A program made the position numbers and the translations under genes. 64,000 bases of DNA from Candidatus Korobacter versatilis (GTDB lineage Bacteria; Acidobacteriota; Terriglobia; Terriglobales; Acidobacteriaceae): assembly GCA_016185395.1 (NCBI GenBank), contig JACPNR010000011.1:124001-188000 (forward strand), in the 5' to 3' direction. Each line of letters starts with the position of its first letter. Positions within the stretch are counted from its first letter, which is position 1. Positions 6,951-46,086 of the stretch are shown here, piece after piece. The notes under the pieces are model-generated. The model made no database searches. It saw only the letters and a program-made list of their open reading frames with translations, and was not told where the DNA came from.

Positions 6951-6994
6951 CGCTGCGTAGCGCAGCGCGTCAATGTTCCGAGCCGCAAAGCGGC
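6951..6994 (+). promoter_or_regulatory. two hairpins just before the adhesin ribosome site
   Basis: CGCTGCG-tag-CGCAGCG (6951-6967) is a perfect 7-bp stem, and GCCGC-aaa-GCGGC (6982-6994) a 5-bp stem directly before the ACGAGGG ribosome site and the ATG at 7009. The rest of 6610-6950 shows no gene. The hairpins could modulate translation; this is inference. Confidence 0.4.
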
Positions 6995-7008: not shown

Positions 7009-10000
7009 ATGAAGCAGGCGAACCTGAAGATCTCCAATTGCTCACTTCGCACGTTCACGCTAATCGCAATCGTGGGTCTTCTGCTCATGGCCGCGCCCTC
7101 GGCGCAAGCGCAGTTCCTCTGCACCAACTTCAACACCGGCACCGCCGATGGCGCGACCGCCGGCACCGCGACGAGCACCGCGTGCGGAACGAACGCAACC
7201 GCGGGCGCATTCGCCGGCACAATGGCTATCGGTAATGCCTCGACGGCGAACGCCACTGGTGCCACCGCTGTCGGCACTACCTCGACAGCGTCCGGCACTT
7301 CGTCCACCGCCGTCGGTGCTTCCAGCACGGCGAGCGGCTCCAACACTGCGGTCTTCGGTAATGCCGCGTCGGCGACCTTGGCCAACGGTACGGCGGTTGG
7401 CGCGGGCGCGCTCGCTTCGGGCGCCAATGCCACCGCCCTCGGCCAGGGCACGACGGCCAACGCCTCAAGCGCCACCGCAATCGGGCAGGGAGCCACCGCA
7501 AGCGGCGGCGGCGCGACCGCCATCGGCCAGGGCACGGTAGCCAGTGCGGCTAACACCGTCGCCATCGGCAACAACTTGACCGCAGCGTCGGCCGCCGGTG
7601 CGGTGGCCGTCGGCTCGGGCGCGCAGGCCACCCAGGGCAACGCGGCCGCCTACGGCTTCAATGCCATCTCCAGCGGCATCGGTTCGACCTCTGTCGGCGC
7701 GAACTCGCTCGCCAACGCCACCAATGCGTCGGCCTACGGCCAGAGCGCGACGGCCAGCGGCGTCAGCTCGACTGCCCTCGGCAACGGTGCCACTGCGAAC
7801 TCGTTGAATGCCACCGCCACCGGCGCCAGTTCGACCGCCAGCAACAGCTTTGCCTCTGCCTACGGCGTCAGCTCGACAGCCAGCGGGAACGCTTCGACGG
7901 CGATTGGAGACGCGGCCACGGCGAGCGGTTCGAGTTCCACTGCCGTCGGCGTCAGCTCGCTCGCCAACCAGCAAAATGCGACCGCGCTCGGGGTGGGGGC
8001 TCAGGCGACCAACTCCTTCTCCACGGCCACCGGCGCCAACGCGATTGCCAGCGGACTCGAGTCGACGGCGACGGGCGACGCGGCCACGGCGAGCGGGGAC
8101 TTTTCCACCGCCACCGGCGTCCTTTCGCTCGCCAGCGGCAATATTTCTTCGGCCTACGGCCAGCAATCTACGGCGAGCGGCACCCAGTCGTCGGCGTACG
8201 GCTTCAATTCGTTCGCCAGCGGGACCAACTCCACCGCCCTGGGCAACAGTTCGTTGGCGAGCGGAGCCAGCTCCACCGCCACCGGCGACAATTCCGAAGC
8301 CAGCGGGCTCAACTCCACCGCCAGCGGCTTCAACTCACTCGCCTCGGGCACCAGCTCTTCGGCGGTGGGCGACAGCGCGACCGCCAGCAACACCAACGCC
8401 TCCGCCTTCGGTGTGGGCGCGACGGCGAGCGGATTAAATTCCACCGCGACCGGCGACTTCTCGACGGCCAGCGGCAACTTCTCCACCGCCAGCGGCTCCG
8501 GTTCGACGGCCAGCAACCTCGCGGCCACCGCGACCGGCGAGGGCTCGACGGCGAGTGGCATATTCTCCACCGCGACCGGCGCGGTTTCGACCGCGAGCGG
8601 CGACTTTGCGACGGCTTCCGGGAACTCCGCCACGGCCAGCGGAACCAGCTCCTCCGCCTATGGCGATAACTCGAACGCCGTCAACACCAACGCTTCGGCG
8701 TATGGCGCGGGCTCTAGCGCCAGCGGCACGAACTCGACCGCTCTCGGCGTTTTAGCGAGCGCCACGGGTGCGAGTGACACGGCCGTAGGCGACACGGCAA
8801 CGGCGAGCGGCGGCAACTCCTCGGCGTTCGGCGTGAACTCCGCAGCTTCGGGCGCGAGCTCCTTGGCGGCCGGTGACACCGCATCCGCGGGAGGGCAAAG
8901 CTCGATAGCGGTGGGTAATGGAGCCGACGCGGTCAACGCCTTTGATACGGCGATCGGATTCCAAGCGACCGCTAACGGCGGACAATCCTACGCGATCGGA
9001 AACGTGGCCAGCGCCTCCGGCTTCAACTCCACGGCGATCGGCACGATCTCGTCCGCAAGTGGCACGAACGCAAACGCGTTCGGCGTTTCGGCTTCGGCGT
9101 TGGGATTAGATTCCACCGCCATCGGGACATTATCCTCGGCGACCGGCACCAACGACGTCGCCATGGGCACCTCGTCGGCGGCTTCGGGCGGGAACTCGAC
9201 CGCTATCGGCAACAGCACGATCGCTTCGGGCGCCAGCTCTTCGGCGGTGGGCGACAACGCGACCGCCAGCAACACCAACGCTTCGGCGTTCGGCGTGGGC
9301 TCAACCGCGTCGGGAGTGAACTCCACCGCGGTCGGCAACGCGGCGACCGCCTCGGGCGACAGCTCCATCGCGATCGGCGATACCGCCACGGCCTCGGGCG
9401 GCGCCAACACGGCGTTAGGTCTGAACGCGACGGCCTCGGGCGCCGGCAGCAACAACAGCGCCTACGGCAACGGATCGAACGCTTCGGGCGATGGCAGCAA
9501 CAACAGCGCGAGCGGCGCGTCCTCGTTCGTCACCGGCGACGGCAGCAACAACCTGGCAAACGGCGCCTTCGCGTCCGCCTCGGGCGACAGCAGCAACAAC
9601 ACCGCCATCGGCAACGGCGCGAATGCGGACTCCGCCGGCGGCACCAACAGCAACAACGTCGCCATCGGTACCGGTTCCAACTCGAGCGGCGACAACAGCC
9701 GCAACGTCGCGATCGGCAATAACGCGAGCGCAGACGCCAACGGCGGCACGAACGCCGACAACGTCGCGTTTGGGAGCAGCTCCTTTGCCAGCGGTGCCGT
9801 GGCCGACAACTACGCCTTCGGGCGTAACTCCAGCTCGACCGGCGACGGCAGCGCCAACACCGCCTTCGGCACCCTGGCGAACGTTACCGGCACGGGTAGC
9901 AACAACAGCGCCTTCGGCACCGTCGCGAGCGCTTCGGGCAATGCCAGCAGCAACAGCGCGAGCGGCACGAACTCTTCGGCCACGGGCGACAGCAGCCGCA

Positions 10001-13000
10001 ACATCGCCTTCGGCGCGAACTCGAGCTCGAGCGGCAACAGCAGCTTGAACGCGGCGATCGGCGATGGTGCGAGCGCGACCGGCGACAGCAGCACCAACCT
10101 GGCCATCGGCGCGAATTCGAGCGTCGACTCGAACGGCGGCAGCTCCACCAACACCGCTTTCGGGACCAACTCCAGCGCGACCGGCGCCACCAGCACCAAC
10201 ACCGCGATGGGCACCGGCGCCAGCGTGAGTGGTGACAACAGCACCAACAGCGCGACCGGTAACGGCGCGACCGCCTCGGGCAGCGGCAGCTCCAACAGCA
10301 CCGTCGGCGACAACTCGACCGTCTCCGGCGACGGCAGCAATAACAACAACAGCGGCGCGAGCTCGACCGTTGCCGGCGACGGCAGCAGCAATACGAATAG
10401 TGGCGCATTCTCGAACGTTGGCGGCGACGGCAGCGGCAACGCCAACAGCGGCGCTTTCTCGAACGTTTCCGGCGCCGGCAGCAACAACGCCAACGCCGGC
10501 TGGGGCTCGAACGTCTCGGGCGATGGCAGCAACAACACCAACACCGGCTGGGGTTCGAGCGTCTCTGGCGATGGCAGCAACAACACCAACACCGGCTGGG
10601 GTTCGAGCGTCTCTGGCGATGGCAGCAACAACACCAACACCGGCTGGGGTTCGGGCGTCTCCGGTACGGGCAGCCGCAACAGCAACAGCGGTTCTGGATC
10701 TAGCGTATCGGGCGACAACAGCACTAACAGCAACAGCGGCTCCAGCTCCAACGTTTCGGGGGCCGGCAGTACCAACAGCAACAGCGGTTCTGGATCCAGC
10801 GTATCGGGCGACGGCAGCACTAACAGCAACAGCGGCGCGAATGCGAACGTTTCGGGCGACAACAGCACCAACAGCAACAGCGGCGCGAACGGGAACGTCT
10901 CGGGCGCCGGCAGCACGAACAGCAACAGCGGCCAGAACGCCAGCGTTTCCGGCGATGGCAGCACCAACAGCAACAGCGGCCGGAACGCCAACGTCAGCGG
11001 CCTGGCCAGCAACAACAGCAACAGTGGCGCCGATGCGACCGTTTCTGGCGACAACAGCACCAACAGCAACAGCGGCCAGAGTGCGACCGTGTCGGGCACC
11101 GGCAGCACCAACAGCAACAGCGGCCAGAACGGGGTCGTTTCCGGCGATGGCAGCGTCAACAGCAATAGCGGCCAGAGCGGCGTCGTGTCGGGCGCCGGCA
11201 GCGTCAACAGCAACAGCGGCCAGGGCGGGAACGTGTCGGGCGACGGCAGCGTCAACAGCAATAGCGGCCAAGGCGGGGTCGTGTCCGGCGCCGGCAGCGT
11301 CAACAGCAATAGCGGCCAGAACGGGAGCGTTTCCGGCGCCGGCAGCGTCAACAGCAATAGCGGCCAGGGCGCGATCGTTTCCGGCGATGGCAGCACCAAC
11401 AGCAACAGCGGCCAGAACGCCAACGTCAGCGGCTTGACCAGCAACAACAGCAACAGCGGCGCGAACTCGACCGTGTCGGGTGACAGCAGCACCAACAGCA
11501 ACAGCGGCACGAATTCGAACGTCTCGGGCGCGGGCAGCAACAACAGCTCGAGCGGATCCTTCTCCAACGTCTCCGGCGACGGCAGCTCCAACAACGCGTA
11601 CGGATCCTTCTCGAATGTTTCCGGCGACGGCAGCAACAACTCGGCCGGCTACGGCGCGACGGTCTCGGGCGACGGCAGCAGCAACAACGCGAACGGTCTG
11701 AACTCGACCGCCGCGGGCGATGGCAGCTCCAACTTCGCCAGCGGCAACGGCGCGACCGCGACCGGTGACGGCAGCTTCAACTCGGCTTCCGGCTTCGGCG
11801 CTTCCGCGGTCGGCGACAACGCTAACCAGCTCGCCATCGGCACCGGCGCGCACGCGAACGGCGACAACAGCAGCAGCATCGCCATCGGCAACAGCGCCAA
11901 CGCCGACGGTGACGCCAACAACATCGCCACCGGCACCAACGCCAACGCGAGCGGCAACTCCAACAACATCGCCACCGGCTTCAACTCCAACTCCTCGGGC
12001 GACGGCAGCGACAACATCGCGACCGGCACGGGCGCGAACGCGACGGGTGACGGGAGCCAGAACATCGCCACCGGCGCGAACTCCTTCGCCGCGGGCGACA
12101 ACAGCGTGAACAGCGCCACCGGCGTGAACTCCGACGCCTCGGGCGCGAACAGCGCGAACAACGCGACCGGCGCCGGCGCCAGTTCGTTCGGTGACAACAG
12201 CGCCAACAGCGCGACGGGCGCGAGTGCGGACGCCAGCGGCGCCGGCAGCTTGAACACCGCGAATGGCGCGTTGAGCAACGCTTCCGGTGACGGCAGCGCG
12301 AACAGCGCCACGGGCGCGTTCTCCAACGCTTCCGGCGCAGGCAGCAGCAACTTCGCCGGCGGCGGGGGCAACGCGTCAGGTGATGGCAGCGCCAACGTCG
12401 CCATCGGTCAGAACGCCGACGCCAGCGGCGCGGGCACGGCCAACACCGCGGTCGGCGCCAACTCGATCGCCACCGGCGTGAACGCTTCTGCCTTCGGCAG
12501 CAGCGCCATCGCGACGGGCGATAACTCTTCGGCCGTGGGCAGCGGCTCGCAGGCGACGGGAACGGGTTCTTCCGCCTTCGGCCAGAACTCGCTCGCGAAC
12601 AACACCAATTCGTCGGCCTTCGGCACCGGCTCCACCGCGTCGGGCACCAGCTCCTCCGCCTTCGGTAACGGTTCCACGGCGAGCGGCAGCAGCTCTTCCG
12701 CGTTCGGTTCCGGTTCGACCGCCAACAACTCCAGCTCTTCCGCCTTCGGTACCGGTTCGCAGGCCACGGGCAGCAGCTCCTCCGCGTTCGGTTCCGGCGC
12801 GGTGGCGAGCGGCAGCAGCTCTTCGGCTTACGGCGCGGGAGCCTCGGCAACGGGCGCGAACTCCACCGCGTTCGGCGCCGGCTCCTCGGCCAACTCGGCC
12901 TCCTCGACCGCCTTCGGTCAGGGCGCATCGGCGAACTTCGCCAACTCGGCGGCGTTCGGCGCGGGCGCCACGGCGACGGCGGCGAACCAGCAGGTGTTCG

Positions 13001-13401
13001 GCACCAACACCAACACTTACACCATGCCGGGCATCAACAGCGCGGCCAGCATCGCGGCGCAGACCGGACCGGTGAACCTGGTCACGGCAGACGCGAACGG
13101 CAACCTGGCGGCACGTCCGCTTGCCATCGTCGGCTTCGTCACCTTCCCGGACCTGTACAAGGTGCAGAGCCAGGCGTTCGATGGCATCGCGACCGCGTTC
13201 GCCATGGCGGGCACGCCTTGGGTGGGCGAGAACGAGAAGGTCGCCTTCTCCGTCAACTGGGGCTACTTTGAAGGCCACAACGGCTTCGCCGCTGCGGGCG
13301 CCGTCAAAGTGCACAAGCACGTGCAGTTCAACGGAGCGTTCGGTATCGCCAACCGCGAAGGCATCCCGGGTGGCCGCATCGGATTGCGCCTGGCGTGGTA
13401 G
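7009..13401 (+). CDS. YadA-type trimeric autotransporter adhesin, 2130 aa
   Basis: Very long surface adhesin of the trimeric autotransporter (type Vc) family. I place the start at 7009 because MKQANLK opens a classic signal peptide ending SAQAQ; an upstream ATG at 6973 would add 12 residues. Nearly the whole passenger is YadA-head repeat: 14-residue units such as GQGATASGGGATAI in the first ~810 and last ~180 passenger residues, and 16-residue Asn/Ser-rich units such as SGDGSTNSNSGQNANV in between. A short neck (NTYTMPGINSAAS) leads straight into the YadA membrane anchor: about 70 residues, four beta-strands (KVAFSVNWGYFEGHNGFAA, AVKVHKHVQFNGAFGI, ending GRIGLRLAW). No coiled-coil stalk is apparent. 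Trimer, outer membrane, binding target unknown. Confidence 0.93.
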   Translation: MKQANLKISNCSLRTFTLIAIVGLLLMAAPSAQAQFLCTNFNTGTADGATAGTATSTACGTNATAGAFAGTMAIGNASTANATGATAVGTTSTASGTSSTAVGASSTASGSNTAVFGNAASATLANGTAVGAGALASGANATALGQGTTANASSATAIGQGATASGGGATAIGQGTVASAANTVAIGNNLTAASAAGAVAVGSGAQATQGNAAAYGFNAISSGIGSTSVGANSLANATNASAYGQSATASGVSSTALGNGATANSLNATATGASSTASNSFASAYGVSSTASGNASTAIGDAATASGSSSTAVGVSSLANQQNATALGVGAQATNSFSTATGANAIASGLESTATGDAATASGDFSTATGVLSLASGNISSAYGQQSTASGTQSSAYGFNSFASGTNSTALGNSSLASGASSTATGDNSEASGLNSTASGFNSLASGTSSSAVGDSATASNTNASAFGVGATASGLNSTATGDFSTASGNFSTASGSGSTASNLAATATGEGSTASGIFSTATGAVSTASGDFATASGNSATASGTSSSAYGDNSNAVNTNASAYGAGSSASGTNSTALGVLASATGASDTAVGDTATASGGNSSAFGVNSAASGASSLAAGDTASAGGQSSIAVGNGADAVNAFDTAIGFQATANGGQSYAIGNVASASGFNSTAIGTISSASGTNANAFGVSASALGLDSTAIGTLSSATGTNDVAMGTSSAASGGNSTAIGNSTIASGASSSAVGDNATASNTNASAFGVGSTASGVNSTAVGNAATASGDSSIAIGDTATASGGANTALGLNATASGAGSNNSAYGNGSNASGDGSNNSASGASSFVTGDGSNNLANGAFASASGDSSNNTAIGNGANADSAGGTNSNNVAIGTGSNSSGDNSRNVAIGNNASADANGGTNADNVAFGSSSFASGAVADNYAFGRNSSSTGDGSANTAFGTLANVTGTGSNNSAFGTVASASGNASSNSASGTNSSATGDSSRNIAFGANSSSSGNSSLNAAIGDGASATGDSSTNLAIGANSSVDSNGGSSTNTAFGTNSSATGATSTNTAMGTGASVSGDNSTNSATGNGATASGSGSSNSTVGDNSTVSGDGSNNNNSGASSTVAGDGSSNTNSGAFSNVGGDGSGNANSGAFSNVSGAGSNNANAGWGSNVSGDGSNNTNTGWGSSVSGDGSNNTNTGWGSSVSGDGSNNTNTGWGSGVSGTGSRNSNSGSGSSVSGDNSTNSNSGSSSNVSGAGSTNSNSGSGSSVSGDGSTNSNSGANANVSGDNSTNSNSGANGNVSGAGSTNSNSGQNASVSGDGSTNSNSGRNANVSGLASNNSNSGADATVSGDNSTNSNSGQSATVSGTGSTNSNSGQNGVVSGDGSVNSNSGQSGVVSGAGSVNSNSGQGGNVSGDGSVNSNSGQGGVVSGAGSVNSNSGQNGSVSGAGSVNSNSGQGAIVSGDGSTNSNSGQNANVSGLTSNNSNSGANSTVSGDSSTNSNSGTNSNVSGAGSNNSSSGSFSNVSGDGSSNNAYGSFSNVSGDGSNNSAGYGATVSGDGSSNNANGLNSTAAGDGSSNFASGNGATATGDGSFNSASGFGASAVGDNANQLAIGTGAHANGDNSSSIAIGNSANADGDANNIATGTNANASGNSNNIATGFNSNSSGDGSDNIATGTGANATGDGSQNIATGANSFAAGDNSVNSATGVNSDASGANSANNATGAGASSFGDNSANSATGASADASGAGSLNTANGALSNASGDGSANSATGAFSNASGAGSSNFAGGGGNASGDGSANVAIGQNADASGAGTANTAVGANSIATGVNASAFGSSAIATGDNSSAVGSGSQATGTGSSAFGQNSLANNTNSSAFGTGSTASGTSSSAFGNGSTASGSSSSAFGSGSTANNSSSSAFGTGSQATGSSSSAFGSGAVASGSSSSAYGAGASATGANSTAFGAGSSANSASSTAFGQGASANFANSAAFGAGATATAANQQVFGTNTNTYTMPGINSAASIAAQTGPVNLVTADANGNLAARPLAIVGFVTFPDLYKVQSQAFDGIATAFAMAGTPWVGENEKVAFSVNWGYFEGHNGFAAAGAVKVHKHVQFNGAFGIANREGIPGGRIGLRLAW
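9439..12440 (+). repeat. internal 48-nt (16-residue) coding repeats of the adhesin
   Basis: In this part of the adhesin the head repeat period is 16 residues (48 nt), sometimes 18, rather than 14. The block 10320-11660 is the most regular and is dominated by Gly, Ser, Asn and one Val per unit. Boundaries are approximate because the period changes gradually at both sides. Confidence 0.8.
10546..10641 (+). repeat. two identical 48-bp units
   Basis: Units 10546-10593 and 10594-10641 are identical base for base and encode GWGSSVSGDGSNNTNT twice; the units before and after differ by only a few bases. This points to recent slippage or unequal recombination. Confidence 0.85.
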
Positions 13402-14138: not shown

Positions 14139-15479
14139 GACGCCAACGACCGTCTCGCGACCGACGCCTACGACGCCAACGGCAACACCACCGTCAACGC
14201 GTCCATCGGGAACACGTATGACTTCGAGAACCACCTGGTGCAGCGCGGCTTCATCTCGATCGTTTACGACGGCGACGGCAACCGCGTGCAGAAGACCGCC
14301 GGCGGCGTGACGACGAAGTTCCTGGTGTCGGAGATAAACCCCACTGGGTATGTGCAGGTGGTCGACGAGCTGGTTGGCGGTTTGGTGCAGCGCCGCTACA
14401 CCTAGGGTCTGGATCTACTGAGTGAGACGCAGAAAATCTCGGGTACGTTCCAGACCAGCTTCTACTCGTATGACGGCCACGGCTCGGTGCGGCAGCTCAC
14501 CAACACCGCCGGCGCGATCACCGACACCTACGCCTACGACGCCTTCGGAAACCTGATCGAGCAGACCGGAACCACTCCGAACCTCTATCTCTACGCGGGC
14601 GAGCAGTTCGATCCGGATCTCGGGCTCTACTACAACCGCGCGCGATACCTCGACGTACGGAACGGCCGGTTCTGGGGAATGGATATCCTCGAAGGAGATC
14701 CTCAAGCTCCGATCTCGCTCCATCGTTACTTGTACGCTGGTGACAATCCGGCGAATGCGACCGATCCTACCGGCAAGGAAATTGAGGAGACAATAACGGC
14801 CGCCACCGAATTAGGCCTGATTGGGACGGCGCTGGGAGCATCGATTTCGGCGGGCATTGCGATTACATCAGGGATTGGCTTCTTGGACAATATTCCGCGA
14901 GACGCTTTCCGCAAACCGCCCGACGGCAAGGTCATCGGCTTCCAAACCGGCTGGGCACCCAGTGGAGCATTGTCCAAGTCGAATAACCCGTTCCTAGTCG
15001 GCCTTGCTCTGGGGCTTCAATTCTCCGCTGCGATCGGGGGCGTCGACTTGGTGTGGAAGAACGGATCTGACTCGGCGTGGCTCTATGGCTTCGCAGGTGC
15101 CACCTCGGGTATCAATGTGTCTGCGAAAGGAAACCCGTTAACCAATGGAACGAGCTCGCCATACGACTTGTTTGGCGTATTGGGTAACTCAGCGGCGTAT
15201 AGCGGATACGTATGGAACCTTGAGAACATAACTGACTACACGGACACTTTTTACTGTGTGTCTGTAACTCCACGAATCCGAGCGGCTTTCCCCAACGCCC
15301 CCTTCCAAGTGGGCGGAACGGTCTGCACGGGCGAAAAGGCGCCTGGAAAGGAAGCTACCTATACGTACACGACGGCGGCTTCTCCGATTTCAAAGGACGG
15401 CGGAACCGCCCTTCAGTTCGGAATAACCCACTACTGGTATGTTGGGACAATCGACTTAACTGGATCAGGAAAGCCATAA
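14139..15479 (+). pseudogene. RHS-repeat gene remnant with intact C-terminal core and tip
   Basis: Reading frame of an RHS/YD-repeat protein without its N-terminal part. In frame from 14139, YD-type sequence runs ([23 protein letters not shown]) to RRYT at 14402, where TAG replaces the tyrosine codon expected in the usual YTYGLDLL signature, and then continues as GLDLLSETQ. After the stop, an ATG-less restart is possible at 14487 (330 aa): RHS core with [18 protein letters not shown]-like signature (given in part) up to the DPTGKE boundary, then a 238-residue tip. The tip has a hydrophobic Gly/Ala/Ile segment followed by beta-rich sequence and no nuclease or ADP-ribosyl motif I recognise. Base composition drops in the tip. 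Frame is preceded immediately by TAG, so the front is lost. Confidence 0.85.
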
Positions 15480-15698: not shown

Positions 15699-16646
15699 TC
15701 ATAATGACACTTTCTCCGGGTTTTGTTCGCCCCGCAACGGATGCACTGTAGCGGGGATGGGGGTGTGGGGCAAGGGGCCGGCGTTTGAGGCCCCTGGCCC
15801 CACTCCCTCTCCGTGGAAGCTTTTGGTTTCCGCCGCGTACTCCTCCGGTGTCTTGTAGCCCAGGGCCGAGTGTGGGCGCTCGCCGTTGTAGTACGAACGC
15901 CATTGCTCGATGGTGCGCCGCGCGTCGGCGAGCGAGAGGAACCAGCTCTCGTTCAAGCACTCGTCGCGGAACTTGCCGTTGAAGCTCTCGATGTAGCCGT
16001 TCTGCATCGGCTTCCCCGGCGGGATGAAGTGCTGCTCGACGCCTTGCGCGAAGCACCACTGGTCCAGCACGCGGCCGGTGAACTCGGGGCCGTTGTCGGT
16101 GCGGATCTGCCGCGGCTTGCCGCGCTCGCCCGCAAGCCGCTCCAGCACCCGCACCACGCGCACCCCGGGCAACGAAGTATCGACCTCGATGGCCAGGCAC
16201 TCGCGCGTGTAGTCATCGACCACGTTCAGCGTGCGCAGCTTGCGCCCGCTCGCCAGCGTGTCGCGCATGAAGTCCAGCGACCACACCTGGTTCGCACCCG
16301 TAGGCACGGCGAGCGGCACACGCGGCGCAGCGGCCCGCCGCCGGCGCCGCCGCTTGCGTACCTGCAGCCCCTCCAGCCGATACAGCCGGCAGACGCGCTT
16401 GTGGTTCACCCGCCATCCTTCGCGCCTCAACCGGTCATGCAGACGGCGATAGCCATACCGGCGAAACCGCTCCGCCAGCTCGCGCAACCGCTCGCGCAGC
16501 TCGCCGCTGTCGACCGCGTGCCCGTGGTAGCGACAGGTCGAACGATGACTCCCCATCAGCCCGCAGGCGCGCCGCTGGCTCACCTGAGTTTCCTCACATG
16601 CCAGCGCCACTGCCTGCCGTCGCATCCGCGGGCTCACCACTTTTTT
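15699..16646 (-). CDS. IS3-family transposase OrfB (DDE integrase), made as OrfAB by -1 frameshift
   Basis: The catalytic part of the transposase, expressed as an OrfAB fusion by -1 frameshifting on A-AAA-AAG at 16640-16646. After a basic HTH-like lead (about the first 110 residues, including [15 protein letters not shown]) comes the retroviral-integrase core with the DDE triad: Asp in SLDFMRDTL, Asp in RTDNGPEF and Glu in [13 protein letters not shown]. The motif [10 protein letters not shown] is typical of the IS407/IS3-like subgroup. The frame is uninterrupted. The first in-frame ATG inside OrfB is at 16625, so an independent OrfB is also conceivable. Confidence 0.92.
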
Positions 16647-16900
16647 CTGAGCACCACCTCGAGCGCCTGCTTGTCCAGCGTCAGGTCCGCCACCAGGTGC
16701 TTCAGCCGCCGGTTCTCCTCCTCCAGCGTTCGCAGCCGCCGCGCCTCGCTCACCTCCAGCCCGCCGAACTTCGCTTTCCAGCGGTAGTAGCTCTCCTTGC
16801 TCACCCCGTGCTTCCGGCACAGCTCGCTGACGTTGCCGCCCGCCTCGCCCTCCTTCAGGATCGCGATGATCTGCTCTTCGGTGAACCGGCTCTTGCGCAT
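16634..16900 (-). CDS. IS3-family transposase OrfA
   Basis: An 88-residue DNA-binding subunit of an IS3-type transposase. Residues 1-45 form a helix-turn-helix ([20 protein letters not shown] and [19 protein letters not shown]), and 50-80 a leucine-zipper-like helix ([18 protein letters not shown]). It ends in RKKW just after the slippery AAAAAAG, where a -1 shift joins it to OrfB. All features of a working copy are present. Confidence 0.93.
16640..16646 (-). promoter_or_regulatory. programmed -1 frameshift site of the IS element
   Basis: AAAAAAG on the minus strand at the OrfA/OrfB overlap; the OrfA frame stops ten bases later. Slippage here gives the OrfAB transposase. Confidence 0.75.
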
Positions 16901-17074
16901 ACACTTCTCCTCTCCATGGTTGAGGGAAAAGGTGTCATTCTACGTGGACCAGTTTTCGGGGGGCAGGTCACAGCTCAGGTGAGTGCTGGCTAGGCACAAG
17001 CAGTTTCTTTCCGTATAATCGGTGATTCCTTATCTCCCAGTGAGGTTCGTACTATTTCCGCCATTTTTACGGGA

Positions 17075-19924
17075 ATGAGTTTGCGCGCGAAGCGCATCCG
17101 CTCCGCCGCTGCGCGTTGCCTGGCGGCGGCGCTCCTTGTGTTTGTTTTCAGCGGCTTGGCCGCGGCCCAGCAGGAGATCGTCCAGGAGGTCCAGATCCAC
17201 GGCAACCGCCGCATCCCGGCGGAGACCTTACGCGCCCGCATCTTCACTCGCGCCGGTGATGTCTATGACCCCGCCGGCATGGAGCGCGACTTCAATTCGC
17301 TGTGGAACACGGGCTATTTCGAGGACCTGCGCATCGAGCGCGAGGACAGCGCGAAGGGCTACATCATCCACATCTACGTGAAGGAGCGGCCGACCATCCG
17401 CCGCATCGAGTACAAGGGACTGAGCTCGGTCTCGCAATCCGACGTGCTCGACCGCTTCAAGGAACGCAAAGTCGGCCTCACCGTCGAGAACCAGTACGAC
17501 CCCACCAAGATCAAGAAGGCCGAAGTCGTGCTCAAGGAGCTGCTCGGCGAGCACGGCCGCCAGTTCGCCAAGGTCACGCCGGAGATCCATCCCATCCCGC
17601 CGGCCGCCGTCGAAGTGGTCTTCAACATCGTGGAAGGCCCCAAGGTGAAGGTGGGGAAGATCAAGTTCGAGGGCAACAAGAACATTCATAGCCGCACGCT
17701 GCGCGCCGCGATGAAGAACCTGAAGCCCATCGGCATCCCGCACTCCATCTTCCTCGAGAGCCTGTTCTCGAAGACCTACGACGCTTCCAAGCTCACCGAA
17801 GACGCCGAGCGCGTGCGCAACGCCTACCAGGAAAAGGGCTACTTCAAGGCGTTGGTCCACGATCCCAAGACGCAGGTGCGCGATTCCGGCGGCATCAACT
17901 TCCCGTTCTTCTGGAAGGGAAAGCACGGCAAGGCGGTCGACATCACCATGCCGATCGAGGAAGGCGGCCGCTACCGCCTCGGCACCATCACTTTCAAGAA
18001 CAACCGAGCCATCACCAACCAGCGGGCCCTGCGCGGGATGTTCCCCATCCGGGACGGCGACATCTTCAACACCGACCTCATCCGCAAGGGCCTCGACAAC
18101 CTGCGGAAAGGCTACGGCGAACTCGGCTACATCAACTTCACTTCCGTGCCGGACACGAAGATCGACGACGAAAAACATCTCGTCTCGCTCGAGATCGACG
18201 TGGACGAAGGCAAGCCCTTCTACGTCCGCCGCATCGAGTTCCAGGGCAACACCACCACGCGCGACAAGGTCATCCGCCGCGAGCTGGCGGTCGAGGAAGG
18301 CGGCGTCTACAACAGCCGCCTGTGGGACCAGAGCATCCTGCGCCTCAACCAGTTGAATTACTTCGAGACGCTGAAGGCCGAGCAGGATACCGAGATCCGC
18401 CGCAACGAGACCGACGGCACCGTCGACCTCACGCTCAAGCTCAAGGAAAAAGGCAAGAACCAGATCGGATTGAACGGCGGCGTGAGCGGGCTCTCCGGCT
18501 CGTTCATCGGCCTGAACTACCAGACCAACAACTTCCTCGGACTGGGTGAGACGCTCACCATCGAAGCCAACGTCGGCTCGCGGCAGAAGAACATCCTGTT
18601 CGGTTTCACCGAACCGTACATGTTCGACCGCCCGCTGCAGACCGGCTTCACCGTCTATTACCGGCAGTACAACTACAACCAGGCGCAGTTGCAGTCGCAG
18701 TTCACCAACCAGCCCATCAACCTGCCGCAGAATTTCCTCAACACGCTGCAGAACTACAACCAGTCGTCGGTCGGCATGACCGTGTTCGCCAGCTATCCGC
18801 TGCGGCATTCGTTCAAGCGCGTGGGCCTCACCTATTCGCTCGACAACTCGACGGTCAACACCTTCTCCGACGCGTCGCGCAGCCTGTTCGAGAGCATCCA
18901 GTTCCGCAGCGTCGACGGGCCGAACGCGCTCAAAGGCATCGTCACCAGCAAAGTGCTCCCCAGTTTCTCGTTCAGCACCATCAACAGCACCTTCCGCCCG
19001 ACCGGCGGACAGAGCCTCTACGCCGGCGGCGAGATATCCGGACTGGGCGGCAACGTGCGCACCATCCGGCCCATCGTGGAGTACAAGCGCTGGTTCCCGA
19101 TGCGCGGCATCCATTTCACCCACGACCCCGGCAACGCGCCGCAGATCCTCGGCGTCCGCATCCAGGGCTCGTTCCTCACCGGCTGGGGAGACATCGTTGC
19201 GCCGCCGTTCGAGCGCTTCTACCTCGGCGGCGACAACGACTTGCGCGGCTTCGACGTCCGCACGCTCTCGCCCGTCATCTACCTGGTGCAGAAGGTGAAT
19301 TTCCCGCTGCTCAATCCGGATGGCACCACCGTCCCGGTGGACAAGAACAATCCGCGCCGCGGCAACATCGCCGTGCCCATCCCGGCGCGGAAACTGGTGT
19401 TTCCCGGCGGCGATACCAGCATCGTCTCCAACGTGGAGTACCGCATCCCCATCGCCGGCCCGGTCACGCTCGCCATCTTCAACGACTTTGGCATGAACAT
19501 GGCGCTGCGCCCGAGCCAGTTGCGGTTGAGCACGGATTCCGTCAACGCCCTCAACACCGGCAGCTTCGGCTGCTCCGACATCGACATCACCTTCCAGTGC
19601 GTCGGGGTCTCGCCGCCGCTGCCCGCGTTCTCGCGGAGCATCAGCGTGATCTCCGGGACGAACTACGTGCCGCGCATGTCCACCGGCCTGGAATTGCAGG
19701 TGCTCATGCCGGTCATCAACGCGCCGCTGCGCGTCTACTACGCCTACAACCCGCTGCGCATGAACACGCTCACGCAAACGCCCAACCAGATCACCCGCGA
19801 CATGTTCCCCGTGGGCGGCGCCGGCGACTTCAGCTACCAGCAGGCGCTGCGCGCCTTCTCCCCCGGATACCGCCTCTCCGAGCCGAAAAGCACCTTCCGC
19901 TTCACCGTCTCGACCACGTTCTAG
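17075..19924 (+). CDS. bamA: BamA/Omp85 outer-membrane protein assembly factor
   Basis: A 949-residue Omp85 protein that inserts beta-barrel proteins into the outer membrane. Signal peptide at residues 1-31 (LVFVFSGLAAAQQ). Five POTRA domains follow, starting around residues 32 (EVQIHGNRRIPAETL), 107, 192 (KIKFEGNKNIHSRTL), 298 and 385 (RIEFQGNTTTRDKVI). The barrel fills about 460-949, with FYLGGDNDLRGFD as the conserved strand/loop-6 region, and ends FRFTVSTTF, a good beta-signal with terminal Phe. A TATAAT lies at 17012-17017, but its -35 is poor and the IS element ends only 42 bp before it. Downstream skp/ompH completes the usual pair. Confidence 0.96.
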   Translation: MSLRAKRIRSAAARCLAAALLVFVFSGLAAAQQEIVQEVQIHGNRRIPAETLRARIFTRAGDVYDPAGMERDFNSLWNTGYFEDLRIEREDSAKGYIIHIYVKERPTIRRIEYKGLSSVSQSDVLDRFKERKVGLTVENQYDPTKIKKAEVVLKELLGEHGRQFAKVTPEIHPIPPAAVEVVFNIVEGPKVKVGKIKFEGNKNIHSRTLRAAMKNLKPIGIPHSIFLESLFSKTYDASKLTEDAERVRNAYQEKGYFKALVHDPKTQVRDSGGINFPFFWKGKHGKAVDITMPIEEGGRYRLGTITFKNNRAITNQRALRGMFPIRDGDIFNTDLIRKGLDNLRKGYGELGYINFTSVPDTKIDDEKHLVSLEIDVDEGKPFYVRRIEFQGNTTTRDKVIRRELAVEEGGVYNSRLWDQSILRLNQLNYFETLKAEQDTEIRRNETDGTVDLTLKLKEKGKNQIGLNGGVSGLSGSFIGLNYQTNNFLGLGETLTIEANVGSRQKNILFGFTEPYMFDRPLQTGFTVYYRQYNYNQAQLQSQFTNQPINLPQNFLNTLQNYNQSSVGMTVFASYPLRHSFKRVGLTYSLDNSTVNTFSDASRSLFESIQFRSVDGPNALKGIVTSKVLPSFSFSTINSTFRPTGGQSLYAGGEISGLGGNVRTIRPIVEYKRWFPMRGIHFTHDPGNAPQILGVRIQGSFLTGWGDIVAPPFERFYLGGDNDLRGFDVRTLSPVIYLVQKVNFPLLNPDGTTVPVDKNNPRRGNIAVPIPARKLVFPGGDTSIVSNVEYRIPIAGPVTLAIFNDFGMNMALRPSQLRLSTDSVNALNTGSFGCSDIDITFQCVGVSPPLPAFSRSISVISGTNYVPRMSTGLELQVLMPVINAPLRVYYAYNPLRMNTLTQTPNQITRDMFPVGGAGDFSYQQALRAFSPGYRLSEPKSTFRFTVSTTF

Positions 19925-19975
19925 GCAACCGTTTCTTACTAAGGCCCGCGGCGGAAAGAAGAAGGCGCCGCCGGT

Positions 19976-20004
19976 TTGACCACCCTTCCGGATGCCCTTA
20001 TAAT
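19976..20004 (+). promoter_or_regulatory. sigma70-type promoter of ompH
   Basis: TTGACC (19976-19981), 17-nt spacer, TATAAT (19999-20004). Near consensus. It gives ompH its own promoter with a leader of about 130 nt. Confidence 0.75.
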
Positions 20005-20140
20005 GGGGGGCATTCGCACCCGCGAAATCTCTCAGTGGGACCCATCCTGCGCGCAGCGCCGATGTGGAAAAGCGGCTGGCCGAGCCGCCTGATAGGTTTT
20101 GAGGAATTCTGAAACATCCTGAAGGAGTCCAAAAGATCCA

Positions 20141-20821
20141 ATGAATCGCACGTATGCACGTCTCGCGCTTTCGCTCGCCATCGCGCTTTCCGTCACCGCC
20201 CTGGCCCAAACCAGCCGCGCCGCCGCTTCACCGGCTTCGCCCGCCGCGCCGGCTCCGTCGGTCTCGCCCAGCAAGATCGGCATCATCAACATCAAGGGCG
20301 CCATCGTCGCCTCCAACGAAGGACAGCGTGATTTCGAGGCGCTGCAGAAGCGCTTCGACCCCAAGAACTCCGAACTCAAGACGCGCAACGACGAGATCGA
20401 AGGCCTCAAGAAGCAGCTCCAGGCCCAGGGCGACAAGATGAACGAGGACGCGCGCGCCGGCCTCATCCGCCAGATCGAGAGCAAGCAGACCGCGCTCAAG
20501 CGCTTCGTCGAAGACACCCAGGCCGACCTCAACTCGCAACAGAACGAGCTGGCGAAATCCATCGGCTCGAAGCTGATGAAGTCGCTCGACAAGTACGCCC
20601 GTGACAACGGCTTCGCCCTGATCATGGATTACTCCACCGATCAGAGCGGCGTGCTCTGGGTGGGCCAGGGCGTGGACATCACCTCCGAAGTGATCACCGC
20701 CTACAACACCGATTCCGGCGTGCCGGCGCAACCGAAGGCCGCGGCGCCCGCGGCGCCTTCGGCCTCGAAGCCTGCCGCCAAGCCGGCGACCACCACCCCG
20801 ACACCGGCCAAGCCGCGCTAG
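20141..20821 (+). CDS. OmpH/Skp-family periplasmic chaperone
   Basis: A 226-residue periplasmic protein of the Skp/OmpH family, which holds unfolded outer-membrane proteins on their way to BamA. Signal peptide 1-27 (AIALSVTALAQTSRAAA). The body starts with KIGIINIKGAIVASNEGQRD, the family's first strand and helix, continues through a long charged coiled-coil tentacle pair (about 70-150), and returns to a short strand (YARDNGFALIMDYS). The last 40 residues are Ala/Pro/Lys low complexity, longer than in typical Skp. It follows bamA, as is common, and has its own promoter and a strong terminator. Confidence 0.92.
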   Translation: MNRTYARLALSLAIALSVTALAQTSRAAASPASPAAPAPSVSPSKIGIINIKGAIVASNEGQRDFEALQKRFDPKNSELKTRNDEIEGLKKQLQAQGDKMNEDARAGLIRQIESKQTALKRFVEDTQADLNSQQNELAKSIGSKLMKSLDKYARDNGFALIMDYSTDQSGVLWVGQGVDITSEVITAYNTDSGVPAQPKAAAPAAPSASKPAAKPATTTPTPAKPR

Positions 20822-40832: not shown

Positions 40833-43800
40833 CTATCCAGGCGGTTTTGTCGCGGCCTCTAGGTCGCATGCAATCTCGGCTGAATCATAACGAGGCTGAT
40901 AAATGTATTTGTCATATCCCCAGTTCGTGAGGGGTACCGTCACACCGGCACGGATCGCGCCCGCGCTTGCACTGGCAACACCTCCAACGAAACAACCGAC
41001 ACCGGCCCCTGGAATCGCCCCGACACCAAAGAATACTGCCCCACTACTTGCTCCCCAAAAGGTGCCAGCACCGCACCCCCATGCCGCCGAGATTCCGATT
41101 TGAACGAGCACACGCTTCGTCTCCCCGGCTTCAAAGGCAGCCTTCGCGGTGTCAGCTTCAGCCCGCTTTCGCGCAATACACGCCCTTCGCTTCCTCTCCC
41201 TTGCCCCACCGCCGCTCCCACCATCGCCGCCACCTACGACGGCCGGAACAACGACATCGACAAGAGTGAAGCAGCACAGGGCCGGGAAGAAGAAGTCGCC
41301 GTACTGGATGAAGATCAGATCAAGGTGAATCGGCTGAACGCTGTACCCCAGGAGGGCTAGTGCCCCTCCGTAGGCAAAGACAACGGACCCAATGCCGCGT
41401 AGGCACCCAGGGAAGTAACGGCCTACTATGTCGGGATTCTTCATGCAGGGTAGTTGGACATCCAGTCCAAGCGGATCGACAAGGCCAACCGGGTCATTTC
41501 TGACATAAGCATAGCGATTCAACGATTGTGGATTGAAGGCATCTCCTGCCAATGGGTCGGCGGTCAGAAATCTACCCAGCCGCGGGATGTAGGAGCGCGC
41601 ATTGGCATAGTCCAGCGCGCTCTCGCCGTCGCGCTCGTAGGTGGTGAACCTCCACTTGCTCGACCCGGTGTTCTCGTACCACGTCTCGCCGTAGGGAAAG
41701 TGGCCGAAGGTGCGGGTGATGGCGCCGCTGGCGTCGGTCTCAACGCGCGCGGAGAGGCGGTCCATGTGGCGGTAGGTAGGCGTGCCGCTTGAGTTCAGTG
41801 ACGCCAGCAGCGAGTCGCCCGCGTAGATGTACTCCTGCGAGAGTGCTGGCGTCGAGCCAGTGTACTCGGCGAGGACCGTGAAGCCGGAGAAGACGTATGT
41901 GGTGATGGCGGCGCTAACGGTCTTCTTGATGCGCAGGCCGTCGGGGCCGTAGACGTAGGTCGCGGCGCCGGAGTTGTAATTCACCAGGCGGTTCTCGGCG
42001 TCGTAGGCGAACGAGTTCGTGCCGTCCGAGGTCATATTGCCGGCAGCGTCATAAGCGTAGCCGGTGTTGGTGATGCGGTTGGTGGTCGCGCTCACGGTGA
42101 GCTGCGGCTGGGAGGGAGCGGAATAGGGGGAGTTGAGCACGCCGCCGGTGAGAGTCTGCTGCAACATGGTGCCGAAGCGATCGTAACTCCAACCCAGTCC
42201 CCAAGTCCCGTTCGCGCTCTGGTCGCTGGTCGAGGCGGCAATGAGGCGGTGGACGGCATCGTAGCCGTAGTTCTGCGTCTTGGTCGTGTCTTCGGTCCCG
42301 TTCGGCTTCCAGGTGATCTTCTGGATCTGGCCGTTGTTGTTGCTCTGCGGCGAGGCGCTGTAGCAGGTGTCGCCGGAAGTCGAATTGGTGGTGTAGCAGT
42401 AGAGCAGGTTCAGCAGGTCGCTGGAGCCGTTGGCGTAACGGATGGAGGCGATCTGGAGGTGGTCGTTGTAGCCGAAGTAGGCGGAGACGCCGTTGCCGTA
42501 GTTGAACTGGGTGATCTGGCCGGCGGCGGTGTAGTCGGCGGTGGTATCGGGCACGGTGAGGTAGGTGCGCGAGCCGTCGGCGAGCTGCGAGGTGCGGCCG
42601 GTGGCGTCGTAGGTGGTGGTCACGGCGCGCAAGGACGGATAGGTCAGCGTGGTGAGTTGGTCAGCGCTGTTGTAGGCGTAACCGATGGTGTAGGTGTTCG
42701 AGCCGATGGTCTTGGCGGCGGAGATGACGCGGCCGAGCTGGTCGTAGCTGTAGCTATCGGACTCGTTGGAGTTGTCGGCGGTGAGCAGGCGGCCCTTGTT
42801 GTTGGAAGCCGAACTGGTGCCATAGGTGTAGGTGATGCCCGCCGTGGCGGCGACGTTGGGGGCGCCACTGACGTCGTAGGTGATGGTGTAGGGCCGGTTC
42901 ATGGCGTCGTAGGCGTAGTTGGTCTTGGCTCCGCGAGGGTCGGTGCGCAGGAGGGCGGCGCTGAAATCGGTGTAGGTGTACGTCGTTGCCGCGGTGCTCT
43001 CGGCGGGCGTGGCGGAGGTAAGGCGCCCGAGCGAATCGTAGGCGTACGTGCGGGATTGCGGCGTGAGCGAGCCGCGCTTGGCCTGGCTGACGGTCAGCAA
43101 ATCGTTGATCACGTCGTAGGTGTAGGTGGTGATCATCGGCGTGGCGAGCGTGCTGTTGCCGCTCGAGTCGGCGCCGCCCGTGAGGTTGGAGCCAGAGTTG
43201 TAGAGGACGAGCGCAGCGCCAGTGGTGCTGGAGCTGAGCGAGTAGTTCGTAGCGGCGCCAGCGGTCTTGGAAGTGAAGAAGACCGTGCTTCCCGCGGCCG
43301 CCGCTGTGACGCTGGAAGTGCCGTCCAGGTTGAAAGAGTTTGCGAGCAAGATGGCAAACGTGGGGCCATCGGTACAGACGCCGCGGGAGCAGGTCGAGGT
43401 CTTGCTCTTGGTGAGGCCGTTTACGGTGATGCTGACTACGTCTCCCGAGACGCTGCTGCCAGTGATGGTGACGAATCCGGTGCTCGTCATGCCATCGCCA
43501 GAGCCCGGCTCGTCGACCTCAATCAGGCGGCCGAGGGCGTCGGCAAAGCTCCGGCGCTGCTTGCCCACTGGGTCCGTGGAGGTGACGCTGTTGCCGCTGT
43601 AGCTGGTCTGATAGCTGCCGCCGGTGGCCGGCGCCATCGATGTTATCCGGTCGTAATTGTCGTACCCATAGGTCGTGAACACTTCGCTTTCGCCCGGTTT
43701 GCGAGGGTTGCTGCGCTGGGACAGACGGCCGGCGGCGTCATAGGTGCTGCGCGTGATCGAGAACTGGGTGCTGCCGTTGCGGGCCTCCTGTTGGAGAACT

Positions 43801-45872
43801 CGACCGAGGCCGTCAAGAAGAGTGAACGAGACCGCGCTGTTCGCGGCCGACGAGACCGAGACGGAAGGCGAGGCAGAGGCGTCGTCGAATGTGCTTGTCA
43901 CGACGACGCTGTCGGGACGGATCGCGGTTGCGGGACGATCCACGGGGTCGTAGGTGAAATTCGTTGTCTTGCCGTTCTCGTCGGTGCTGCTGAGCGGCAG
44001 GCCGCTGGCGAAGTCGTAGGTCGCGCTGGTGGTGAGCTGCGTGCCAGAGGGGCCGCGAGTGACGGAATCGGGGTAGGCAAATTTGGTGGTGTTGGAATAG
44101 GTCCACTGGATGGTGTTGCAACAGTCGGCATCGGCACTAAGGAGATTGCCTACCGTGTCGTAGTAAAGGTTGCGCACGACGCCGCCCGAGTGGCCCGCGG
44201 CATTGCTGTAACGGGTGATGGTAGTGGGGTTGCCGCGCCAGCTATAGGTGATGCCATGATTGGTGTCGTCGTGTTGGACCACGCCCGCGTTGTTGGTGAG
44301 CGAGGTGGAAGTGTCGTACTGGATTTCGGTGAGCGCGACAGCCGTGCCATTCGGTTTCTGCACGGTGACGGAAACCGCTAGATTCAGGATATGGTTCGAC
44401 GTGTAGCCGCTTGTTCCCAGGTACGTCGTCAAGGTCTTGCGAGCGAGGTTCAAGCCCCAGTCGTACTCGTCGAGCTCAGTGACGTTGCCGTTGCTGTCGT
44501 AAGAATAGATGGCTTGCGCGAGCTGGTTGGAATCGTTGAGGCGCGTGGTGACGTTCCCTATACGAGGGTTGTTGTTCGTGGTTGCGTCGGCAACCCATGC
44601 GTAGGTGGCGGTGCGCAGGGGCGCTCCCGAGGAGCTATGGAACTGAACGGACTGCGTCAGGCCTGCTTTCCAATCGCTGGTCGTGAATAGCGTAGTGACG
44701 GTTTGCGTGCTGCTCGGCGAGGGGTTCTGGATCGTGTAGGTGCTGACAGCGCCACCGCTCTTCACGATGGTATGGGTGTAGACGGCGGTGTTGACGCCAT
44801 CGTAGACGGTCTGGTGCGAGAAGCCAGGGAAGTCGGTCACTGGACTGGTCGCCCAGACTGTGTCATAGCTGACGGAGCTGCGAAGCGTACCGTTGGAACT
44901 GAGTTGCTGGATCTGGTTGACGATACCCCAGTCGCCGTAGAGGAAGTTCACTGCCAGGCTGTTGGCGTAGATGACGCCCGTCAACACGGTCAGGGTCGAA
45001 CCGCTGGCCGGACTGTTGGTAGCGGCGAGCGGCGACGCGAAGTTGTAGTTGAAGGTGTAGTTCGTGTTCCAAGAAAAAACGGCGTAGGTCTTCGATCCCT
45101 GAACGATGCTGGCTAGCGTGCCGGTCAGGGCGCCGGTGGTGTTGTAGTTAAAGGTAATGGTGCGGTTGAGCGTGTCAACGATGGTCGCGATCTCCTGCCC
45201 CTTCGCCCACGTATCGGTGCGATAGGTGACGGTGATGTAGTTGCCGTTGGTGTCGGTGATCTTGGTGGGGCGGAAGAACGTGGTGGACCCCGGAAAAGCG
45301 GCGTACTGCACCTGAGTGCCGTTCTTGTAACGAAGCACCTTGGTCGAGGAGTTCCAATCGATGTAGGAGCTATCGGTCGTGACGCCAGAAGTGAAGCTGC
45401 GCTTCGTGCCATCTCCCTCGTGCAGAACGTATGTGGTGCCGTTCAACTCGATATAGCCGAAGCCGAGTCGGAAGCCATAACCCGGAAAGTCGCGATCAAC
45501 GTTGAAAGTGGCGGAGTTGTTTGCGGTGTCGATCGTCCAGACGCGGCTGTTGTACAAGAGGTTCAGACTCATATCCAGGCCAGCACGTCCGGGTAGGTGG
45601 AGAATCGGGACAACGTAGCTGAAGCTGGCGCTGGGAGGAGTGATGGGGTCGGCTTGAGGGCTCGAACCCTTCGAACCCGGCCGCCACGGGTCATACGGCA
45701 TCCGGAGGGACGAGTCCTTGCGCTCGTTGGGTCGCTGGGAGTTGGCGGTGAAAGTCCCGCTGTACCCGGGGAAGCTCGGGTCGGGCTCACAGTTGGGAGT
45801 GCAGCTGGCGAAGGAAGCTGCGGCGGCGAGAAGGAGCGCGACAACAGCGGCGAAACGCGCACAGCGAGCCAT
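40833..45872 (-). CDS. secreted RHS/YD-repeat protein with variable C-terminal tip
   Basis: A 1679-residue RHS protein. ATG 45872 opens a signal peptide (FAAVVALLLAAAASFASC, possibly lipoprotein) with AGAGG seven bases upstream; the longer frame to 46031 is not needed. About 20 YD-type repeats follow (YDALGRL/YDAMNRP/YDQLGRV style), interrupted at about residues 795-905 by a beta-rich insert (FVTITGSSVSGDVVS ... TNYSLSSST). The core ends with GLRIKKT, YVFSGFTVLAEY, ARSYIPRLGRFLTADPLAG and the DPLGLD boundary. The last ~210 residues are a distinct tip: a hydrophobic part, a Gly-Ser linker with a KRRACIARKRAEAD helix, then a glycine-rich hydrophobic hairpin that might insert into membranes. RHS shells wrap and deliver such tips. 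Confidence 0.9.
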   Translation of the reverse strand: MARCARFAAVVALLLAAAASFASCTPNCEPDPSFPGYSGTFTANSQRPNERKDSSLRMPYDPWRPGSKGSSPQADPITPPSASFSYVVPILHLPGRAGLDMSLNLLYNSRVWTIDTANNSATFNVDRDFPGYGFRLGFGYIELNGTTYVLHEGDGTKRSFTSGVTTDSSYIDWNSSTKVLRYKNGTQVQYAAFPGSTTFFRPTKITDTNGNYITVTYRTDTWAKGQEIATIVDTLNRTITFNYNTTGALTGTLASIVQGSKTYAVFSWNTNYTFNYNFASPLAATNSPASGSTLTVLTGVIYANSLAVNFLYGDWGIVNQIQQLSSNGTLRSSVSYDTVWATSPVTDFPGFSHQTVYDGVNTAVYTHTIVKSGGAVSTYTIQNPSPSSTQTVTTLFTTSDWKAGLTQSVQFHSSSGAPLRTATYAWVADATTNNNPRIGNVTTRLNDSNQLAQAIYSYDSNGNVTELDEYDWGLNLARKTLTTYLGTSGYTSNHILNLAVSVTVQKPNGTAVALTEIQYDTSTSLTNNAGVVQHDDTNHGITYSWRGNPTTITRYSNAAGHSGGVVRNLYYDTVGNLLSADADCCNTIQWTYSNTTKFAYPDSVTRGPSGTQLTTSATYDFASGLPLSSTDENGKTTNFTYDPVDRPATAIRPDSVVVTSTFDDASASPSVSVSSAANSAVSFTLLDGLGRVLQQEARNGSTQFSITRSTYDAAGRLSQRSNPRKPGESEVFTTYGYDNYDRITSMAPATGGSYQTSYSGNSVTSTDPVGKQRRSFADALGRLIEVDEPGSGDGMTSTGFVTITGSSVSGDVVSITVNGLTKSKTSTCSRGVCTDGPTFAILLANSFNLDGTSSVTAAAAGSTVFFTSKTAGAATNYSLSSSTTGAALVLYNSGSNLTGGADSSGNSTLATPMITTYTYDVINDLLTVSQAKRGSLTPQSRTYAYDSLGRLTSATPAESTAATTYTYTDFSAALLRTDPRGAKTNYAYDAMNRPYTITYDVSGAPNVAATAGITYTYGTSSASNNKGRLLTADNSNESDSYSYDQLGRVISAAKTIGSNTYTIGYAYNSADQLTTLTYPSLRAVTTTYDATGRTSQLADGSRTYLTVPDTTADYTAAGQITQFNYGNGVSAYFGYNDHLQIASIRYANGSSDLLNLLYCYTTNSTSGDTCYSASPQSNNNGQIQKITWKPNGTEDTTKTQNYGYDAVHRLIAASTSDQSANGTWGLGWSYDRFGTMLQQTLTGGVLNSPYSAPSQPQLTVSATTNRITNTGYAYDAAGNMTSDGTNSFAYDAENRLVNYNSGAATYVYGPDGLRIKKTVSAAITTYVFSGFTVLAEYTGSTPALSQEYIYAGDSLLASLNSSGTPTYRHMDRLSARVETDASGAITRTFGHFPYGETWYENTGSSKWRFTTYERDGESALDYANARSYIPRLGRFLTADPLAGDAFNPQSLNRYAYVRNDPVGLVDPLGLDVQLPCMKNPDIVGRYFPGCLRGIGSVVFAYGGALALLGYSVQPIHLDLIFIQYGDFFFPALCCFTLVDVVVPAVVGGGDGGSGGGARERKRRACIARKRAEADTAKAAFEAGETKRVLVQIGISAAWGCGAGTFWGASSGAVFFGVGAIPGAGVGCFVGGVASASAGAIRAGVTVPLTNWGYDKYIYQPRYDSAEIACDLEAATKPPG

Positions 45873-46086
45873 ATGCAACCTCTTGACGACGAGATTGTGG
45901 CCGAGACGCTGTGGCGGACAGCGCAGTAAAGTTGGCGGCAGGATAGTCCTCGGGCGGGGAAAGTCAAGCGAGATATTCCGACAAGGCAGCGGTCGGCGCT
46001 CGTAGGTCCCCCGCGCGTCCTTTGACAACATCTCAGGTAGGCACGCTGCGCCTCCCTCCGGTTTTCTTTTCCCCCGCGCTTCTGTC

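Follow-up and report, generated by a model that had tools for sequence, protein, structure and literature searches.

The adhesin gene and its surroundings

The window, a 64,000-nucleotide stretch of a contig of Candidatus Korobacter versatilis, carries on its forward strand a gene for a trimeric autotransporter adhesin (7009–13401), identified by its open reading frame, a YadA_head match of 73.7 bits, and the homology of its anchor. The product is a YadA-type protein of 2130 residues, or 2142 residues if read from an alternative upstream ATG at position 6973. Its N-terminus reads by eye as a Sec signal peptide, with lysine in the n-region, a hydrophobic core, and the putative cleavage site APSAQA/Q.

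Positions within a rung of the head are numbered G1 x2 N3 S4 V5 A6 I7 G8 A9 x10 S11 x12 A13 x14 (PMC9543794). As delimited by segmentation and rung spacing, the head is composed of an N-terminal part of about 53 rungs of 14 residues, divided 7+7 and with the canonical Ala6 and Ala13 (7219–9447), a central part of 57 rungs of exactly 16 residues, divided 9+7, with a few of 15, 18, and 19 (9448–12441), and a C-terminal part of about 13 rungs of 14 residues (12442–12987). The central part contains a ladder of asparagines and valines, which rung alignment traces through 25 consecutive 16-residue rungs (10336–11535), and comparison of the rungs at the DNA level places three near-identical Trp-Gly-Ser rungs inside this ladder (10528–10671). 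A head cap (TYTMPGxxSAAS...GNLA) and a YadA-type anchor ending in tryptophan, assigned from Pfam and anchor homology, complete the protein (12988–13401).

The anchor is up to 45–49% identical, over up to 156 residues, to the anchors of Rhizobiales adhesins (E-values to 2e-42). The direct match to the Pfam anchor PF03895 aligns positions 3–60 of 60 and scores 15.9 bits, below the cut-off of 22.7. Judged by these similarities, the product has the YadA-type anchor by which type Vc adhesins are recognized, and its membership in this family suggests a role as an adhesin or aggregation fiber. The head joins the anchor directly. A coiled-coil stalk or neck is usual in type Vc adhesins, though not universal. 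The absence of a stalk, already remarked on in the preliminary description, extends even to the coiled segment of about 17 residues that relatives have. The head contains 69 Asp, 3 Glu, 5 Arg, and no Lys.

An IS-type transposase gene (15699–16904) is followed by genes for BamA and OmpH/Skp (17075–20818), and the presence of the latter genes just downstream of the adhesin identifies the host as a diderm. No other YadA-head protein was found in the host genome. An assembly artefact is unlikely to account for the repeats, because about a quarter of the DNA differs between most rungs and the reading frame stays open throughout.

A 16-residue period between two 14-residue blocks

The head was segmented into half-rungs by dynamic programming, which assigned nearly every head residue. 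Rungs of the 7+7 type (STAIGxx STASGxx) span residues 71–813, with one or two of 15 residues among them. The 9+7 rungs (SxNSAxGxx SxASGDG) start at residue 814 and end at about residue 1811; 7+7 rungs resume at about residue 1812 and continue to about residue 1993. The switch from a 14- to a 16-residue period and back, with some 60 longer units in the center, had been proposed in the preliminary description and is seen here in four ways. Besides the segmentation, the spacing of conserved glycines along the head is 14 in 63 instances, 16 in 57, 15 in six, 19 in two, and 18 in one; the autocorrelation of the protein peaks at 14, then 16, then 14; and Tandem Repeats Finder gives successive periods of 42, 48, and 42 bp along the gene. 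A pattern of three 9+7 rungs has 37 matches in the window and none in 100 dinucleotide-preserving shuffles. The YadA_head match (PF05658, E 1.3e-20) covers the outer 14-residue blocks, the rungs of which follow GxNSxAxGxxSxAx and bear Gly8.

The 16-residue rung is a lengthened roll rung

We built a profile of the 16-residue rung from the window protein and its relatives and searched it against the PDB. The only chain found was that of BpaC (7o23, E 3.2e-13), and in almost all rungs a gap of two residues opens behind Ser4 in the alignment. At the level of alignment, the 16-residue rung is thus shown to be homologous to the roll rung and to carry x-Asn as an insert between Ser4 and position 5, so that it is divided 9+7 rather than 7+7. 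The central units are indeed two residues longer than the usual ones, as first described, but the addition is at one fixed place in an ordinary roll rung. The inserted position is Asn in 57 of 57 window rungs, as Gly8 is Gly in 57 of 57; in the relatives, the search pattern itself specified the inserted Asn, which is no independent evidence there. Rungs of 14, 15, 16, 18, and 19 residues are intermixed singly in the window protein and its relatives, and direct changes between 14 and 16 number 56 in the relatives. This mixing argues that one solenoid accommodates all of these lengths.

Rungs of 16 residues are widespread in Rhizobiales adhesins

Low-complexity filtering probably hides repeats of this kind, and we therefore scanned 84,980 species genomes, in one pass, with a periodic DNA pattern for 16-residue rungs. 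The scan returned 44 stretches, nearly all with runs of 16-residue rungs and mostly from Bradyrhizobium and other Rhizobiales. The carriers include Bradyrhizobium, Mesorhizobium, Aminobacter, Hyphomicrobium, Methyloceanibacter, Xanthobacteraceae, Hyphomonadaceae, and Robiginitomaculum, as well as a few Acidobacteria and Verrucomicrobia. Many of the stretches end in 14-residue rungs and an anchor homologous to that of the window adhesin. Its recurrence in the scan shows that the 9+7 rung is a class of repeat widespread among the adhesins of Rhizobiales and of some other bacteria. With 44 stretches in other species, the supposition that the 16-residue period is in itself unusual finds no support. 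Homologues with 16-residue heads, which the preliminary description had named as counting against its reading, thus exist, but to our knowledge none of them has a solved structure.

The literature searched yielded no published description of 16-residue rungs and gives rung lengths of 14, or 15 in UspA1. The structures on record contain rungs of 14 or 15 residues, and the 9+7 rung, although common in adhesins of soil Alphaproteobacteria, seems to be an undescribed class.

The adhesin gene is probably an import into the host lineage, because none of the other 395 genomes sampled from the host's phylum has the 16-residue rung pattern and 99 relatives lack the anchor. The partial 16S sequence of the host seems acidobacterial. 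Searches of plasmids by tblastn with the ladder and with an Ala-type 16-residue block gave no match. In viral contigs, a search with the ladder found no related loci, and a two-rung Asn6/Val13 pattern found nothing.

We also considered N-glycosylation of NxS/T sites in the outer strand. Asn12 occurs with Ser or Thr at position 14 in 17 of 59 window rungs, with 15.3 expected from column frequencies, and in 257 of 570 related rungs, with 200 expected. The idea was rejected, since the host genome, 90% complete, yielded no GT41 glycosyltransferase.

Asn6 and Val13 change together in the ladder

In the head of BpaC, Ala6 is conserved, residues 5 and 7 point towards the three-fold axis, and residues 6 and 13 point into the chain interior (PMC9543794). 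The BpaC axis is polar, built of Ser, Thr, and Asn, with ordered water in the core, and position 3 forms a ladder of Asn (PMC9543794). The ladder of the window protein, residues 1110–1509, has the consensus S-x-N-S-N-S-G-x-x-x-x-V-S-G-D-G. The S-N-S-G ladder of the preliminary description is real, with 25 consecutive rungs, but it occupies positions 10336–11535 rather than 10320–11660; the other coordinates and counts given there hold with an error of no more than one or two rungs. Asn6 and Val13 occur together in all 25 rungs, where they replace Ala6 and Ala13, and the axis positions 5 and 7 are mostly Ser or Thr, with Ser, Thr, or Asn in 92% and 96% of cases, respectively. The valine had been taken as the leftover of an older core. 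It is instead a new residue at a position that is normally alanine, and it arrives together with Asn6. Val13 extends one to three rungs past Asn6, and Asn6 never occurs without Val13. Ala6 is kept in most window rungs outside the ladder, whereas the conserved Ala6 of the BpaC type is missing within it. An inward-facing Asn in place of Ala6 is absent from the published YadA and BpaC structures, and to this extent the core differs from known YadA cores, as first claimed; BpaC already has a polar axis and, at position 3, a ladder of Asn.

Over 26 rungs, Val13 is encoded by GTT in ten, GTC in nine, GTG in five, and GTA in two. Because the residue is constant through all four codons, Val13 is held by selection and not by recent copying. 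At the DNA level, most ladder rungs diverge from one another by about a quarter; a single duplication is clearly recent, that of the Trp-Gly-Ser rungs, two of which are identical in DNA. The 25 rungs form one block and hence do not represent 25 independent events. Ser, Gly, and Asn make up 29%, 22%, and 20% of the ladder, and the outward position 12 varies (N/S/T/V/G/I).

The 570 related rungs, 485 of them distinct, have Ala at position 6 in 552 cases and Asn in none; at position 13 they have Ala in 524 cases and Val in none. The scan pattern permitted both Asn6 and Val13, so their absence from the relatives was not imposed by the search. Among the sequences searched, the Asn6/Val13 run is found nowhere outside the window protein. 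By this comparison, what is new here is the run of 25 Asn6/Val13 rungs, and the 16-residue rung is already common in related adhesins.

Structural interpretation of the head

We obtained AlphaFold2 monomer models of the ladder and, as a control, of the 14-to-16 junction, which consists mostly of 14-residue rungs. The ladder model (pLDDT 96.5, pTM 0.88) has strands of five residues, running from the residue before the inserted Asn to position 7, and strands of three residues around position 13. It superposes best on right-handed β-helices (Vag8, Z 16.2, 2.5 Å over 206 residues), and left-handed or YadA-type rolls are absent from the structure matches listed for it. The junction control superposes on Vag8 with 2.7 Å and on BpaC with 6.9 Å, although it is 45% identical to BpaC. 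BpaC is a solved left-handed roll, and single-chain prediction therefore misses the known answer on the 14-residue control. AlphaFold2 gives confident yet unreal solenoids for repeats (PMC11795689). Because the control failed and this artefact is known, we rejected the monomer models as evidence on handedness or cross-section and draw neither from them. The 16-residue part may have a different cross-section, as the preliminary description suggested.

We propose, with a probability of roughly two in three, that the head is one continuous roll of the YadA/BpaC type, with two-residue inserts midway and a coupled Asn6/Val13 ladder, anchored without a stalk. It would form a continuous parallel β-roll of about 130 rungs and a rod about 62 nm long, assuming a rise of 4.8 Å per rung as in BpaC. 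The inserted x-Asn would lengthen the inner strand and thus enlarge the rung. Asn ladders are common stabilizers of β-solenoids, and stacked Asn6 and inserted Asn residues may form hydrogen-bonded ladders that face a stack of valines inside each chain. By homology to BpaC, the three-fold axis would be polar and probably hydrated. The rod may act in adhesion or self-aggregation, as a stiff and weakly acidic fiber fixed directly in the outer membrane. A more far-reaching version, which we put forward tentatively and consider somewhat doubtful, is that the roll is enlarged, with two internal Asn ladders opposite one Val stack, a fully hydrated polar axis, and almost no hydrophobic packing, and that four positions per rung were changed in concert over 25 rungs.

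On another reading, the roll is an ordinary one of 14 residues, the two extra residues form a mere surface loop, and neutral drift in low-complexity sequence produced the Asn/Ser/Val ladder. This would agree with an insertion at a single place near the rung edge and with the free mixing of 16- and 14-residue rungs. The relatives, moreover, carry the insert yet keep Ala6 and Ala13, so the insert alone need not alter the core. However, a free loop would not be expected to keep its Asn in every one of the 57 window rungs, nor drift to keep Val13 through four codons and Asn6 only where Val13 is present. The ladder model, unreliable as it is, also places the inserted residues within a strand, and we regard the loop as unlikely.

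We consider it improbable that the 16-residue rungs build a solenoid of another kind, either right-handed or with a new cross-section, joined to the 14-residue rolls. The confident fit of the ladder model to right-handed helices speaks for it, but the junction control shows the same preference despite its 45% identity to left-handed BpaC, the 16-residue profile aligns with BpaC as a homologue whose gaps recur regularly, and rungs of both lengths are intermixed. Ice-binding solenoids use flat, outward arrays of Thr or Asn, and the earlier suggestion of an antifreeze-like fiber with the Asn/Ser ladder as its ice face is very improbable: nothing but the regular, polar β-solenoid composition speaks for it, Asn6 faces the chain interior by BpaC numbering, position 12 on the outside varies along the ladder, and ordinary rungs of soil Bradyrhizobium relatives present nearly the same pattern outward.

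If the core of the continuous roll is as proposed, the ladder carries polarity from the axis, where BpaC has it, into the chain interior. The ladder would then be a natural experiment on how polar the inside of a β-solenoid can be and still fold. Both rung types adjoin in one protein, which makes it a good target for relating rung length to the width and stiffness of the rod.

Comparison with known adhesins

The YadA head of Yersinia (1p9h) is a 14-residue roll matched by the N-terminal part of the window adhesin (E 2e-8). It differs in its hydrophobic Val/Ile axis, short head, and long stalk. The UspA1 head of Moraxella (3pr7, E 2e-5) resembles the window adhesin in having rungs longer than 14 residues; these are, however, mostly of 15 and not 16 residues, are of the type YSTIGGG..., and show no polar ladder in the aligned part. 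Repeats of the form AVAIG-x-x-AG-x-x-x-QG in phage contigs are AIG-type and also have a 16-residue period, but the residues added to the rung are in its other half. No solved relative of these repeats was found.

The 16-residue-rung adhesins of Bradyrhizobium, Mesorhizobium, Aminobacter, Methyloceanibacter, Hyphomonadaceae, and others share the 9+7 rung S-x-N-x-A-x-G. They differ in having Ala6 and Ala13 nearly throughout and a short coiled segment before the anchor, and most of their complete open reading frames encode about 460–1340 residues, compared with 2130 in the window.

The C-terminal head of BpaC from Burkholderia pseudomallei (7o23) is a homologue on two counts: the 14-residue part of the window adhesin matches it at E 1e-33, and the profile of 16-residue rungs does so at E 3e-13. 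Both heads are long rolls near the anchor, acidic and free of lysine, with polar Ser, Thr, and Asn at the axis positions 5 and 7 and an Asn ladder. BpaC, in contrast, has 14-residue rungs only, with neither the two-residue insert nor Asn6/Val13. By its polar positions 5 and 7, its membrane-proximal place, and its negative charge, the ladder of the window protein fits, in its sequence features, the BpaC-like subtype.

Head–anchor junction of the adhesin and its neighborhood

The anchor of the adhesin (12988-13401, plus strand) lacks a coiled segment of about 17 residues (for example, INSQLAGINARLNEIDGRT), which is present in the close relatives L043, L080, and L082, among others, so that the head is joined straight to the barrel. 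The outer strand of the related 16-residue rungs (stretches L043-L086) carries N-x-S/T sequons in 257 of 570 cases, where the column frequencies predict 200. In the genome of the adhesin's own host, 90% complete, a GT41 enzyme was looked for and not found.

An IS3-like transposase ORF (15699-16904, minus strand; rve and HTH_21) is located between the adhesin and BamA, and is possibly a sign of the route by which the adhesin gene arrived. BamA and then Skp/OmpH (17075-20818, plus strand) follow directly downstream of the adhesin and transposase. A fragment adjoining the adhesin (14487-15476, plus strand) is RHS core-like and had no match in Pfam. An RHS-repeat protein of 1732 residues is encoded at 40836-46031 on the minus strand.

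Comparison with phage repeats

The viral contigs L038-L041 contain another type of 16-residue AIG repeat, AVAIGxxAGxxxQGxx (for example, L040, around 8865-8974), for which a search for a relative of solved structure found none. The extra residues of the phage repeats sit in the opposite half of the rung from those in the 9+7 rung of the adhesin.
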